From assembly GCF_014696315.1 (NCBI RefSeq), contig NZ_JACJPX010000074.1:1-40087 (forward strand): a DNA stretch of 40,087 bases, written 5' to 3'. The stretch comes from Calothrix membranacea FACHB-236. Lineage in GTDB: Bacteria > Cyanobacteriota > Cyanobacteriia > Cyanobacteriales > Nostocaceae. A program made the translations under genes and the position numbers. This document shows, one piece after another, positions 4,574 through 38,714 of the stretch. Below the pieces are notes generated by a model that was given only the letters and a program-made list of their open reading frames with translations, made no database searches and was not told where the DNA came from. Every line of letters starts with the position of its first letter. Position 1 is the first letter of the stretch.

Positions 4574-4708
4574 GCTTAATGGGGATTGGGGACTAGGGAC
4601 TAGGGACTAGGTAATTGGTAATTGGTAATTGGTAATTGGTGTTTTTTATTTCTTCCTCATTTTCCCAATCCCCAGTCCCCAATCACCAGTCCCCAACCCC
4701 CAATCCCC
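4574..4708. repeat. Heptamer repeat tract (GGGACTA, TAATTGG, CCCCAGT types)
   Basis: Short tandem heptamers follow each other: GGGACTA three times, TAATTGG four times, then CCCCAGT/CCCCAAT variants. Such tracts are known as STRR sequences in heterocystous cyanobacteria. The 4483-4921 gap has no convincing gene; besides this tract it holds the hairpin at 4808-4837 and CAACAGT-like copies near 4862-4881. Confidence 0.8.
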
Positions 4709-19926: not shown

Positions 19927-20092
19927 ATTGACTGTCAAAAGTCAAAAGTCAACAGTCAACAGTCAACAGTCAACAGTCAACAGTCAACAGTCAACAGTCA
20001 ACAGTCAACAGTCAACAGTCAACAGTCAACAGTCAACAGTCAACAGTCAACAATCAAAAGTCAACAGTCAAAAGTCAACAGTCAACAGTCCT
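19927..20092 (+). repeat. STRR3-type CAACAGT heptamer array, about 23 copies
   Basis: GTCAACAGTCAACAGT continues for about 165 bp with a few CAAAAGT and CAACAAT variants near both ends. CAACAGT is a known STRR family in heterocystous cyanobacteria. The open frame through it is only a by-product of the repeat. With the dyad at 20129 it fills the gap 19924-20249. Confidence 0.93.
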
Positions 20093-29911: not shown

Positions 29912-30093
29912 AAGGGACTTCCAGAACAATATAGTCCAATAATATTTTATTCTCCCCCCTGCTCCCTGCTCCCTGCTCCCTGCCCCCCTGCCTCTCTAAA
30001 GAAGACTTCCCAAAAAAACAATGTGATAATCTCTCCCAAAATCCCAAATTGGTATAAGCTGGTACGAAGTTGAATAGCAAAGAATAGCGCCTT

Positions 30094-32939: not shown

Positions 32940-33626
32940 TTACGCGGAAAATAATAAGGCTGGGATTTGTTCTAAAACTTTTAATGCTTTTAAAGAACCA
33001 CGAATTAAATTAGTAGCAGCAAAAGGCTGTCGGAGTAATGTAATTGCTAAAGGTAAGGGTTTGAGGGAACCATCAGCACTAATTGCTGATGAGAGGTTAG
33101 GGATATCATGGTTACAATCATCGCTGACTACACGCAACATAGCTACAGAAATACCCAACGGATGGAAAAATTCTAAAGCTGCAAATCCTTCCATATCTAC
33201 AACATCTGCGCCTAAAGTCTCTCCGAGATGGCGTTTTTCTGTAGCCGAACAAATGACGCGATCACTTGTTAGTCCTTTGACGAAAGATAGTGCTGAGTCG
33301 TGAGTGCTGAGTGCTGAGTGTAATTGTGCGGTGAAAGCGCGATCGCACTCTTGCGCTTTCCCTTGATATACACATTTCTCATACAGCACAATTTTACCTA
33401 CAGGGTACTGGGGCGATAAACTACCACACAGACCCATAATTAGCACTTTCATCTCTGAAGGATTCAAAAATATACCATCAGCTTGCAATTGATGCAGATA
33501 TGTGTTTAAAGGTTTTATACCTACAGGTATAGGTATAACTTTTGGCGTTGAGCTACTAATAGTGCTTAAGCCGCGATAAACAGCTTTAAACTCTGCACCT
33601 TGAGGGACAAGAATTATACTGGTCAT
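32940..33626 (-). CDS. Nucleoside phosphorylase-superfamily protein, HpnG-like
   Basis: A 228-residue protein of the phosphorylase/MTA-SAH nucleosidase fold. Features are IILVPQGAEFKAVYRGL at the N-terminus, VLIMGLCGSLSPQYPVGKIV (the G-x-x-G strand-loop), VVDMEGFAALEFF and the catalytic-type Asp in RVVSDDCNHD. With HpnA and HpnH encoded 3-5 kb away, it is likely the hopanoid nucleosidase that removes adenine from adenosylhopane; this rests on context. Residues in QLHSALSTHDSALS are encoded by ACTCAGC-type heptamers (33289-33320), an in-frame repeat invasion. The start ATG adjoins a TAATTGG tract. Confidence 0.65.
   Translation of the reverse strand: MTSIILVPQGAEFKAVYRGLSTISSSTPKVIPIPVGIKPLNTYLHQLQADGIFLNPSEMKVLIMGLCGSLSPQYPVGKIVLYEKCVYQGKAQECDRAFTAQLHSALSTHDSALSFVKGLTSDRVICSATEKRHLGETLGADVVDMEGFAALEFFHPLGISVAMLRVVSDDCNHDIPNLSSAISADGSLKPLPLAITLLRQPFAATNLIRGSLKALKVLEQIPALLFSA
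33289..33320. repeat. ACTCAGC-type heptamers inside the nucleosidase gene
   Basis: On the plus strand AGTGCTGAGT, CGTGAGTGCTGAGTGCTGAG: four to five units of the heptamer that also lies just before the radical SAM gene (38762-38780). The frame of the minus-strand gene continues through it. Confidence 0.75.
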
Positions 33627-33791: not shown

Positions 33792-36584
33792 ATGGTCAAG
33801 CCTATTAGCTCAAAATCCGCACGAGAGCGCTTTAATATTTCTAGATTGGCGATTGAATTTTCGTGGTTGACGGTAGGTTTTTGGATTGCTGTGACGGTAG
33901 CTGGGCTATTAGCTTTCAGCTCCCTCAAGTATGCTTTGTTTCCAGATATTACCTTTCCTGTAGTGGTGGTAAATGCTACCGCCCCCTTAGAAACGGCTCT
34001 GGATACTGAGACAAAACTGACTCAACCAATAGAAAAAGGTTTGCAATCTCTGGAAGGACTTGAGGACATCCGCTCATCGACTTATCCAGGGCAAACTGCT
34101 GTAAGTTTGTCGTTTGTAGTTGGTACAAACCTCGACAAATCAACTCGCCAAGTAGAAACAGCGCTGAAAAAGTTAACCCTGACTCAGGGAGCAAATTACA
34201 AAATTATTCCGCTGAACTTAAATGAGTCAGCTGCCATTAGTTACGCCATCGAGAGTCCCTCAGGGAATCTTACGGATTTGACGAAATTGGCAAAAGACCA
34301 AATAGTTCCCGCGATCGCTAAACTGCCAGGAGTGTTAAAAGTAGTGCTATTAGGTGCTACTAATACCTCACCTCCCCAGCTATCAGCAAATATAGGGGCT
34401 TTACCAGAAGGCGGGGCGACTTTAGTCCGCTTCAACGGTAAAGAAGCTTTGGCATTTCAGGTCATCAAAAAAGGCACAGCCAATACTTTAGAGGTGGTGA
34501 GCCGGGTTGAGAAAGAAGTCCAAAAGCTACGGACTTCCCTAAAAGATGTCACACTCACCTTAGCTGCTACCCAGGCTGAATATATCCGCAACGCCACCCA
34601 TTCTACAATCGATGCTTTGATTGAAGCTGTGGTGTTGTCAGTAGTGGTGATATTTCCATTTTTATGGAACTGGCGGGCAACTCTCATCTCCGCCTTGGCA
34701 ATTCCCACATCTCTGGTAGCGACATTTATCGCTATGGCGTTTTTTGGCTTCAACTTAGAAACGATTACACTGTTAGCCTTAGCTTTGGTAATCGGTAGTG
34801 TAATCGATGATGCCATCATTGATGTGGAGAACATCTTGCGGCACATTGATGAAGGCAAAACCCCTCGCCAAGCTGCTTTTGCTGCTACAGATGAAATTGG
34901 CTTAACTGTTATTGCCACCACTGCTACAGCCGTAGCAGTATTTTTACCTATTGGGTTAATGGGTGGGGTTGTTGGGCAGTTCTTTAAACCATTCGGTATT
35001 ACGGTTTCAGCAGCTTTTATTGCTTCGACATTAGTTGCTCGAACCTTATCACCAGTGTTATCTATTTACTGGCTCAAACCCAAACCTTCCCACTCCCCGC
35101 GCCGAGAAGGCAAAATCTGGGTAGCTTTTACTCAATTTTACAGAAACATCCTGCACTGGTCTCTCACTCACCGGAGAATAGTGATTGGATTAGCCGTACT
35201 CAGCTTAATTGCGAGTATGGTATTGGTGCCACTAATTCCCAAAGGCTTCATCCCCAAACTTGATCGCGGCGAGTTCAATATTACCTATACAACTCCCTTA
35301 CTGAGTTTACCTGAGCATTTAAGAGCTGGGCAGGGAGTAGGGGAGCAGGGGAGCAGAGAGCAGGGGAGCAGAGAGCAGGGGAGCAGGGAGCAGGGAGCAG
35401 GGGGAAGTATCAATCCCCAATCCCTAATCCCTAATACCCAATCCCCAATCCCTAATTCCCAATCCCCAATCCCCAATCCCCAATCCCCAATCCCCAACCC
35501 CTTAGAAGATTCTTTGCAAGTTGCGAAGAAACTGGAAGATGTCGTCAGAAAATCACCTGAGGTAGCAACGGTGTTTACCACAGTTGGTTCCCGTGAGGGT
35601 GAGCCAAATAAAGGCACACTTTATGTCAAGCTCAAGAAAGACCGCCAAGTTGAGACTGCAAAATTACAAGATCAATTCCGTTCCTCTTTGCCCAATCTAC
35701 CTGGGGTAACTACCAGCGTGGAAGATATTCAATTTGTCGATACAGGTGGTCAAAAACCCCTGCAAGTGGCGTTAAGAGGTAACGATCTGGCAACCTTGAG
35801 CAAAGCAGCCAAGGCAATTAAACAAAAAATTGAGAAACTACCAGGATTTGCTGATGTCACAATTACAGGTGAAGCAAATCAACAGAATCAGATTTTTCAG
35901 ATCGAGCGACTGAATAATCAACGGGTAGCTTATATCAGTGCTAACCTTGGTCAAAATTTATCTTTGGGGGATGCTACAGACAAATTAGTAGCTGAAGCGA
36001 AAAAAGTTTTGCCCGCTGGTGTTTCTTTAGATTTAGGAGGAGACTCTGCCCACTTAACTGAAGTTTTTGGCAGTTTCGCCACTACTCTAGTTTTATCGGC
36101 ACTGTGTATTGTAGCCGTACTAATTTTGCTGTTTAAAAGCTGGATTGACCCCTTGGTAATTGGCGTTTCGTTGCCCTTGGCATTGGTAGGGGCCTTACTC
36201 GCACTACTAATTACCAAAAGTGACTTTGGCATGATCTCGCTCATCGGCTTTGTCTTTTTGCTGGGTTTGGCAAATAAAAATGCCATTTTGCTTGTGGATT
36301 ACATTAACCAGCTACGCCAATCTGGTTTAGAACGTACCGAAGCAATTCTCAAAACTGGGGTAGTGCGTCTTAGACCCATTATGATGACCACTGCTTCCAC
36401 TATCTTAGGAATGCTGCCTATTGCTTTAGGTTTAGGCGCAGCTTCAGAATTGCGATCGCCTATGGCTGTTGCGATCGCTGGCGGGTTGGTTAGTTCAACT
36501 ATCCTGAGTTTGATTGTTGTACCTGTGGTCTACACCATTTTGGATGATTGGCTTCCTCGGTTCAAAAAGCGGGGTAACAATTGA
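33792..36584 (+). CDS. RND-family efflux transporter permease (AcrB/HAE1-like)
   Basis: A 930-residue inner-membrane proton-driven exporter. The first helix follows [16 protein letters not shown], then [17 protein letters not shown] and the first porter loop. The membrane core has [18 protein letters not shown] and [20 protein letters not shown], with the two adjacent Asp of the proton relay, and [20 protein letters not shown] near the end. Residues 512-570 are an in-frame heptamer-derived insertion. No periplasmic adaptor or outer-membrane gene is adjacent, unlike typical RND operons. Its stop overlaps the hpnA start (TGATG), so it is translationally coupled to a hopanoid gene and might move hopanoids or lipids; HpnN itself belongs to another RND branch. 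Confidence 0.88.
35325..35501 (+). repeat. 177-bp in-frame heptamer insertion in the RND gene
   Basis: A GAGCAGG-type tract (35330-35402) is followed by a CCCCAAT-type tract (35410-35500). Translated they give E-Q-G-S-R repeated and then the heptapeptide I-P-N-P-Q-S-P repeated. The flanking residues (LLSLPEHL before and [10 protein letters not shown] after) look like continuous porter-domain sequence. Confidence 0.9.
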
Positions 36585-37570
36585 TGCAGGTTTTTGTAAC
36601 CGGGGGTACTGGTTTTATTGGTGCCCATTTGGTGAGGTTGCTGCTGCAAGAAGGATATACAGTCAAAGCACTGGTACGCCCTAGCAGTAACCTGCAAAAC
36701 CTCCAAGGGCTAGATGTAGAAATTGTCAAGGGCGATCTCAATGATGGAGATTTGGCGCAGAAAATGCAGGGTTGTCAATATTTGTTTCATGTTGCAGCCC
36801 ATTATTCCCTTTGGCAAACAGACCAAGAGTTACTTTACCGCCACAACGTCCAAGGTACGCGCAACGTTTTAACCGCAGCCCAACAAGCTGGGATTGAACG
36901 CACTGTATATACCAGTTCCGTAGCCGCAATTGGGGTCGGGGAATCTGGTAAAGTCGTAGATGAAACTCATCAGAGTCCCTTAGAGAAATTGGTTGGTCAC
37001 TACAAAAAGTCAAAATTTCTGGCGGAACAGGTAGCGATGCAAGCAGCTAGTACAGGTCAGGAAATCGTTGTGGTCAATCCCAGTAGCCCAATTGGGCCCT
37101 TGGATATTAAACCTACCCCCACGGGGGATATTATCCTGCGGTTTTTGCGGCGACAAATGCCCTTTTACATGGATACTGGCTTGAATTTCATTGATGTGCG
37201 AGATGTAGCCAAAGGTCATTTACTAGCATTAACGCAAGGTAAATCAGGCGATCGCTATATCTTAGGGCATCAAAATCTTACCCTGAAGCAACTTTTAGAA
37301 CAACTCGCCCAAATCACAGGTTTAAAAGCCCCACAAAAGGCTGTACCTGCTTGGCTACCCCTAACTGCTGCTTGGGTAGATGAAAAAATTCTCGCACCAT
37401 TCGGTAAAACGCCCTCAGTACCCTTAGATGGTGTACGCATGGCGCAACAACCCATGTACTACGATGCATCCAAAGCAGTAACAGAATTAGGCTTACCCCA
37501 ATCTTCCCTCACAACAGCCCTTAAAGACGCTGTCGATTGGTTTGTGAGTCAAGGCTACGTCAAAGGATGA
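36584..37570 (+). CDS. hpnA: Hopanoid-associated sugar epimerase HpnA (NAD(P)-dependent SDR)
   Basis: A 328-residue extended short-chain dehydrogenase. The cofactor loop is VTGGTGFIGAHLVRLLL, followed by GDLND, FHVAAHYSLW, NVQGTRNVLTAA and the catalytic Ser/Tyr-x-x-x-Lys seen in YTSSVAAIG and HYKKSKFLAE. NPSSPIGPLDIKPTPTG matches HpnA proteins well. It starts with the ATG that overlaps the RND stop by one base; an in-frame TTG one codon earlier is less likely. HpnA proteins go with hopanoid side-chain genes, though the exact reaction is not settled. hpnH follows after 127 bp. Confidence 0.88.
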   Translation: MQVFVTGGTGFIGAHLVRLLLQEGYTVKALVRPSSNLQNLQGLDVEIVKGDLNDGDLAQKMQGCQYLFHVAAHYSLWQTDQELLYRHNVQGTRNVLTAAQQAGIERTVYTSSVAAIGVGESGKVVDETHQSPLEKLVGHYKKSKFLAEQVAMQAASTGQEIVVVNPSSPIGPLDIKPTPTGDIILRFLRRQMPFYMDTGLNFIDVRDVAKGHLLALTQGKSGDRYILGHQNLTLKQLLEQLAQITGLKAPQKAVPAWLPLTAAWVDEKILAPFGKTPSVPLDGVRMAQQPMYYDASKAVTELGLPQSSLTTALKDAVDWFVSQGYVKG

Positions 37571-37697: not shown

Positions 37698-38714
37698 ATG
37701 GCGATTAATCTACAACAAGCTATAGATATTGGTAAATATCTAGTTACACAACGCTTGAAAGGACGCAAACGGTTTCCTTTAGTATTAATGTTAGAACCGC
37801 TTTTTCGGTGTAACTTAGCTTGTAATGGTTGTGGTAAAATTCAGCACCCACCGGAAATATTAAAACAAAATCTCACCCCAGAACAGTGCTTTGCTGCTGT
37901 GGAAGAATGCGGCGCACCAGTGGTTTCCATTCCTGGGGGAGAACCGTTAATGCATCCCCAAATTGATGAAATTGTGCGGGGATTAGTGGAACGCAAGAAA
38001 TATATTTACTTGTGTACCAATGGTTTGTTATTAGAAAAAAGCCTCGATAAATTTCAACCTTCCCCTTACCTCACCTTCAGCGTTCATTTAGATGGAATGC
38101 GCGATTTACACGACAAATCTGTTGATCGCAAAGGTGTTTTTGATATTGCTGTTAAAGCCATTCGTGCTGCTAAAGCCAGGGGTTTTCGCGTTACAACTAA
38201 CACCACAATCTTTGATGGTACTGACCCCAAAGAAATGCATGAGTTCTTTGAGTTTCTAGAAACTCTGAATACAGATGGGATGATGATTTCTCCTGGTTAT
38301 AGCTACGAATTAGCACCAGATCAAAATCATTTTCTTCAGCGTGAACAAACACACGCCTTATTCCGGGAAATTTTGGCTCCCCAGAAAGCAGGCAAGAAAA
38401 ATTGGAACTTCAATCACAACCCCTTATATTTAGACTTTCTCACTGGCGAGAAGGACTACGAATGTACACCTTGGGGTAGCCCTAGTTACAGCGTTCTCGG
38501 TTGGCAAAAACCCTGTTACCTATTTGGTGATGGTTATTACGCCACCTTTAAAGAATTGCTAGAAGAAACCGACTGGAGCCAATACGGCCGCGCCAGTGGT
38601 AATCCCAAATGTGCCGATTGCATGATGCACTGTGGCTACGAACCAACAGCCGCAATGGATGCGATGCAACCACAAAACATTGCCCGTTCCCTCGGCACTG
38701 TGTTTGGTAAATAA
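37698..38714 (+). CDS. hpnH: Adenosyl-hopene transferase HpnH (radical SAM)
   Basis: A 338-residue radical SAM enzyme that attaches a 5'-deoxyadenosyl group to diploptene, the first step of C35 hopanoid side-chain synthesis. The FeS motif is Cys38, Cys42 and Cys45 in [20 protein letters not shown], the hallmark of HpnH. The S-adenosylmethionine motif [11 protein letters not shown] follows, then [13 protein letters not shown]. Further cysteines ([25 protein letters not shown]) match the family's C-terminal region. AGGAG stands 12 bp before the ATG. hpnA upstream and an HpnG-like gene on the other strand support the call. Squalene-hopene cyclase is not in this window. Confidence 0.93.

Follow-up and report, generated by a model that had tools for sequence, protein, structure and literature searches.

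Heptamer-type tandem repeats occupy 59 codons, in frame, within an intact RND permease gene of Calothrix membranacea FACHB-236. They are probably the present occupants of an old, disordered linker that resident STRR-type repeats have colonised repeatedly, staying where translation tolerates them. The window, i.e., the whole analysed stretch of 40,087 nucleotides, is one contig (C137) of an assembly of 8.81 Mb in 164 contigs (G000). The gene (33792..36584, + strand) encodes a protein of AcrB/ACR_tran type (PF00873, E 3.2e-178) and is stop-free across its 930 codons; the nearest named protein matches are from Nostoc carneum NIES-2107 (86% identity) and N. linckia FACHB-104 (85%). The repeat stretch (35325-35501) opens with codon 512 and closes with codon 570. 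Its first part is a G-rich GAGCAGG array (35330..35403, +) of mixed 7- and 8-nt units, with TRF periods of 7, 8, and 15 nt, and the 15-mer (4.2 copies at 93%) accounts for the E-Q-G-S-R reading. The second part is a C-rich CCCCAAT array (35411..35501, +), found by TRF as CCCAATC with 13.0 copies, 89%, and score 140, and read as PIPNPQS. Perfect or near-perfect 7-nt units in tandem, as in STRRs, are thus present. An earlier note on this DNA had placed heptamer tracts in frame within an intact RND gene, which the open frame, TRF, and translation bear out. It had also called the tracts elsewhere in the window intergenic, and the other GAGCAGG- or CCCCAAT-type tracts listed by TRF do lie between ORFs of at least 100 aa. 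Such comparators are a GAGCAGG array at 29957..29987 (- strand; TRF, exact minus-strand match) and a CCCAATC array at 4664..4708 (+; TRF). A long intergenic array of another heptamer, GTCAACA (22.4 copies by TRF), is found at 19934-20090.

The variable linker that holds the repeats covers aa 501-573 (35292..35510, +). In the structure model, which has moderate overall confidence (mean pLDDT 65), the repeat falls between a strand (494-501) and a helix (570-586), and residues 504-568 have pLDDT below 50, mostly 24-39, so that the linker is probably disordered. In the sequence alignment the linker flanks meet at MdtB 576-577, and we assign the site to the beta1-alpha1 turn of the porter subdomain PC1, which supports the suggested position where the second periplasmic loop begins. 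Compared with the HAE-1 permeases AcrB and MdtB, the protein lacks the docking subdomains DN and DC and has a long PC1 linker: MdtB 192-284 and 710-800 are almost without counterpart, only residues 192-214 and 692-697 of the query standing opposite them. The two TM4 aspartates and the TM10 lysine typical of HAE-1 permeases are represented by D339, D340, and K829, which do not vary among 33 sequences. We take these residues to be the equivalents of AcrB D407, D408, and K940. The profile search reached no NCBIfam RND cut-off, and identification as HpnN is not supported, there being no HpnN model among the profile matches. A second variable segment, of 6-46 aa in the alignment of 81 sequences described below, replaces the missing DN subdomain. 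This segment (window-equivalent aa 189-207) is itself repeat-rich in some relatives, e.g., GRGAEGESGRVGEGE in Argonema (L079).

The linker is older than its present filling. Each of the 81 sequences in the alignment (that of the window plus its best 80 of 153 relatives, a choice that makes the sample lean to close kin) has a linker, of 26-73 aa and longest in the window, and no other segment of the protein varies as much. Thirty-two distinct lengths were found for the block aa 510-561 and 16 for the next most variable block. The earlier proposal, taken as one recent invasion that gave rise to the loop, is therefore unsupported, since the filling has changed many times. The 59 residues were not inserted into a compact loop either, because the aligned relatives (best 80 of 153) already carry 26-70 aa at this place. 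The same alignment could have revealed the insert as a conserved domain; none was found, as its sequence and length vary most, and no conserved motif is present among the aligned loops. Purifying selection acts on both flanks (dN/dS 0.078-0.174 either side of the linker, five pairs), and this, together with the low-confidence linker in the model, supports the suggested tolerance of the loop. Of 20 loops fetched from beyond the family, 15 were obtained, the extremes being G419, with almost no linker, and loops with long, unrelated ones. In the closest paralogue of the own genome the match segments on either side are 15 nt apart, two further paralogues (C77 and C19) have no linker, and the remaining paralogue loci inspected gave no match to the loop-flank pattern used.

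Orthologous linkers are filled with 7-mers, 8-mers, 9-mers such as GGRGGACAA, odd elements, or no repeat. Among the matches listed, 167 of 217 family genomes have the RND gene at E <= 1e-130; 128 of these loci were fetched and 126 loops cut out, G132 being excluded because its contig ends there and G170 because it gave no anchor. By a rule of thumb of three near-perfect copies, 29 loops score as 7-mer, seven as 9-mer, and three as 8-mer, while five have just an odd-element motif and 82 have none of these; odd-element motifs, chosen by eye, are present in seven loops altogether.

The filling follows the repeats that each genome harbors. The own genome has 59 + 46 matches to CCCCAATx3 and 16 + 14 to GAGCAGGx3, dispersed and mostly intergenic as in STRRs, and the reversed control patterns have none, hence the occurrence of the repeats is not due to chance. 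These counts support the implication of the earlier note that the tracts probably came from a repeat family dispersed in the genome. In the genus, the loop filling tracks genome content in all eight genomes: five with heptamer loops have 97-200 CCCCAATx3 matches (own loop included) and the other three have 0, 0, and 1, while the genome with 9-mer loops has 377 9-mer matches against 0-3 in the other seven. In the family, CCCCAAT matches outside the loop have a median of 43.5 in the 22 genomes with at least two tandem CCCCAAT units in the loop and 2.0 in the 104 without (Mann-Whitney p 1.7e-9 over the 126 genomes, kinship ignored). None of the 22 lacks CCCCAAT copies elsewhere, as opposed to 39 of the 104. 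Similarly, 9-mer copies are found elsewhere in 8/8 genomes with 9-mer loops and in 26/118 without. A test free of kinship, on 64 rows having both data sets, yields seven independent contrasts, of which about five agree and none opposes (sign test p 0.03-0.25), a consistent direction in an underpowered test.

The converse rule, that an abundant repeat enters the loop, was rejected. Counting all matches, tandem CCCCAAT is found in the loop of 12 of 21 genomes with at least 44 CCCCAATx3 matches and in one of 77 genomes with fewer than 10; rich genomes without it (9/21) include G117 (232 matches), G042 (169), and G072 (139), and the 9-mer-rich G082, G077, and G078 (343, 171, and 171 matches) have no 9-mer in the loop. 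A resident repeat family therefore looks close to necessary, and not sufficient, for a loop array. The 82 of 126 loops scored as none likewise count against colonisation by resident repeats.

The order of the two arrays is also that seen between genes. Wherever two arrays lie within 120 nt of each other in the own genome, the G-rich one precedes the C-rich one (30/30 pairs, in a sample fetched round these arrays, L117-L216, and the window). By GC skew, 79 of the 126 RND loops go from G-rich to C-rich, none in reverse, and 47 show neither; for the rest of the RND gene of the window, 24% of windows show the G>C skew. This order suggests that a composite element is the unit that moves.

These observations are best explained if the array is what currently occupies an old linker in the PC1 beta1-alpha1 turn, disordered and tolerant of length changes, which in Nostocaceae is repeatedly entered or converted by the dispersed repeats resident in the genome, STRR-type heptamers in the own genome and GGRGGACAA 9-mers in another. 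Entry, by slippage, gene conversion, or element insertion, would often be as a G-rich and then C-rich stretch, as between genes, slippage would then alter copy number, and selection would retain copies that contain no stop, leave the frame intact, and have the orientation giving a hydrophilic peptide. The peptide, if produced, would most likely be a tolerated spacer with no specific task.

The strongest competitor, although rather unlikely, is purely local growth, in which native seeds (IPNPLND coded CCCAATCCC and G-rich codons) expand by replication slippage with no outside input. The conserved linker end PNPLND or IPNPLND is coded CCCAATCCC in many orthologues, including ones without long arrays where such seeds are visible, so that a local origin of some arrays is possible, and a period of 9 nt is in itself frame-preserving. 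Tandem CCCCAAT, present in 10 of the 81 loops, needs eight changes on a tree built with the linker columns left out; this indicates recurrence, but is about as many as with shuffled tip labels (mean 9.6; 5.7% of shuffles need eight or fewer), as fast local turnover predicts. The repeat-rich genomes having no loop array are likewise in agreement with local growth. Against it are the association of the loop unit with the genome-wide family, the G-rich then C-rich order shared with intergenic arrays, and perhaps the odd-element motifs of 7/126 loops (picked by eye), which look unlike slippage products. Colonisation by resident repeats is thus preferred.

The repeats have one orientation in the loops. 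Among 143 different loops (126 from the family genomes and 17 further named loci, partly non-independent, one loop possibly counting for several units), the ratio of orientations is 31:0 for CCCCAAT, 11:0 for CCCCAGT, and 7:0 for GAGCAGG, i.e., 49 loop-by-unit counts. Pure heptamers give one and the same peptide whichever frame is used, and since neither strand of GGGAGCA or CCCAATC contains a stop, an open frame would be possible in both orientations. The orientation used for GAGCAGG reads EQGAGSR, and the unused orientations would read IGDWGLG, TGDWGLG, and PAPCSLL. Hydropathy is -1.16 and -1.61 for peptides of the orientations present as compared with +0.39 and +1.13 for absent ones, and the loop interior is hydrophilic (GRAVY < 0) in 90% of 141 in-frame loops. 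The same orientation is found in 12/12 arrays deep within other, non-RND ORFs (seven ORFs; that in L139 may lie upstream of the true start). An exception is the GH31 gene of G007, where the array is reversed and reads GDWGLG, hence the orientation filter is not absolute. Judged from the coding sequences, this bias suggests that the repeats are translated and selected as peptide; alternatively, a native seed may have fixed the orientation. Avoidance of G-quadruplexes or strand skew is not favored as the cause, because the sense strand is C-rich for CCCCAAT but G-rich for GAGCAGG, and peptide hydropathy accounts for both units. An mRNA hairpin was rejected as the selected feature. The 177-nt repeat stretch in the window folds with -74.6 kcal/mol (z -2.73), but heptamer loops in general are not special in fold z: their median is -0.75, with 18% below -2 (n = 22), and that of other loops is -0.16, with 11.5% (n = 104). 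The longest exact complement between loop halves has a median of 5 nt (shuffled mean 5.2) and reaches at least 9 nt in 4/126 loops.

The orientation bias and the hydrophilic interior, as well as the retention of the linker in 81/81 aligned sequences, would also be expected of a long flexible porter arm selected for adaptor or envelope contact or for spacing, with repeats as favored raw material. We consider such an arm improbable. Loops with no conserved motif and a span of 26-73 aa do not resemble a selected arm, and the outgroup G419 and the closest paralogue, with its 15 nt between the flanking segments, do almost without one. A tolerated spacer is more in keeping with these data.

The frame is kept in 124 of the 126 loops. 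It is broken within the loop in G091 (L097) and G107 (L098), each known from a single assembly, and both loops have a length mod 3 of 1, as one extra heptamer would give. The only other short RND frames among the matches listed, G132 and G133, are both at contig ends; G496 (L346), with the frame broken in the loop at an ambiguous base, and G356, broken downstream, are not counted as loop breaks. The breaks in G091 and G107 (two of 126 genomes), if not sequencing errors, fit a contingency switch, in which gain or loss of a heptamer toggles the transporter, yet such a switch is even less probable than a selected arm: there are two cases only, with one genome per species, many loops have irregular or no units, and phase variation is deemed unlikely for such repeats in the parts considered of Rehm et al. 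(PMC4692102), because many of the associated genes belong to general metabolism.

An assembly or sequencing artefact is scarcely credible, in spite of CCCCAAT arrays that start contigs C80, C100, C126, and C132 and end C113 (among the matches listed), given same-site tandem CCCCAAT in 22/126 family genomes and a frame kept in nearly all loops. Since similar arrays occupy the same place in genomes of other species, assembly error is an unlikely origin for the array as such; the exact copy number in the window is less certain. This assembly breaks at CCCCAAT arrays, and array lengths may be underestimated.

The RND gene is part of a hopanoid locus. It is followed by genes for HpnA, a hopanoid-associated sugar epimerase (36581..37570, +; TIGR03466, 493 bits, cut-off 368), and HpnH, an adenosyl-hopene transferase (37698..38714, +; TIGR03470, 554 bits, cut-off 225), and HpnA is found in the examined flank of 71 of 80 RND relatives. 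On the other side, an HpnG-like phosphorylase gene (32940..33626, -; TIGR03468, E 5.4e-24, below cut-off) has an in-frame heptamer site of its own, CACTCAG at 33289-33320. Of 81 loci, 46 yielded the corresponding hpnG segment, with a length of 37 residues in 30 loci, 40 residues in the window, and 63-68 residues in L034, L035, and L039; CCCCAGT-type arrays are present in L035 and L039, and GAGCAGG is found in L039 too.

Other coding sites in the own genome have taken up repeats. Seven of 77 arrays listed, RND included, fall inside genes supported by Pfam (ORFs read by eye); besides RND, these are found in genes for a C39-ABC transporter (L183), GH31 (L148), a MalK-like ATPase (L162), and NifJ (L178). 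Repeats differ between sister species at the MalK-like and GH31 sites (seven of eight MalK loci cut out, L324 being the exception; GH31 present in seven of eight genomes). Such exchange, there and in hpnG, speaks for colonisation by resident repeats. The NifJ protein has a second odd stretch, DKETRRQGEN, which resembles another repeat.

Heptamers of this kind are known from Nostoc PCC 7120, for which the parts considered of Rehm et al. (2015; PMC4692102) report 89 GGGGA(C/T)T repeats, 68% of them intergenic, with variable copy number and G-quadruplex formation in vitro. The present unit is the same on the other strand (ATTGGGG/CCCCAAT), and is likewise dispersed and mostly intergenic. The scarcity of G-rich repeats on the coding strand noted in those parts fits CCCCAAT here, and does not fit GAGCAGG on the sense strand. 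As far as those parts go, intragenic heptamers are counted in bulk; here, in contrast, a coding site is followed across species, with mirroring of genome content and a peptide orientation bias. Heptamer arrays within a functional gene are known from an RNA gene, while those described here are in protein-coding linkers.

The nearest precedent met for dispersed repeats in frame is that of Rickettsia palindromic elements (RPEs), described in the parts seen of two sources as palindromes of approximately 150 bp that code for a conserved peptide (PMC10969869, PMC3733652). As in RPEs, small dispersed repeats lie in frame within unrelated genes; unlike RPEs as described there, they are tandem arrays with a changing unit at recurrent sites, and the RND loops share neither the long palindrome nor a conserved peptide. 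The full-text literature searched yielded no paper on repeat exchange at coding linkers of cyanobacteria, nor one on mirroring or orientation bias. With most subscription journals outside that search, this is weak evidence of novelty.

More broadly, but only tentatively, protein linkers in Nostocaceae may be a standing habitat of mobile G-rich plus C-rich tandem elements that enter recurrent coding sites, are swapped when another repeat family takes over the genome, and are filtered by orientation at the peptide level. Linkers would then record past repeat activity, repeat DNA would be a routine source of disordered protein, and occasional one-unit changes in RND would also switch the transporter off.

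The function and spread of cyanobacterial STRRs still await an explanation, as Rehm et al. (PMC4692102) state for heptamers in the parts considered. The array in the RND gene is most likely a tolerated passenger from a resident repeat family, and its interest lies more in the recurrence of the phenomenon, which can be tested, than in this one case. Where a coding site admits resident repeats, it offers a comparable record of repeat movement and shows where repeats are tolerated, and intragenic repeats in Nostoc proteins are a warning against their annotation as domains.
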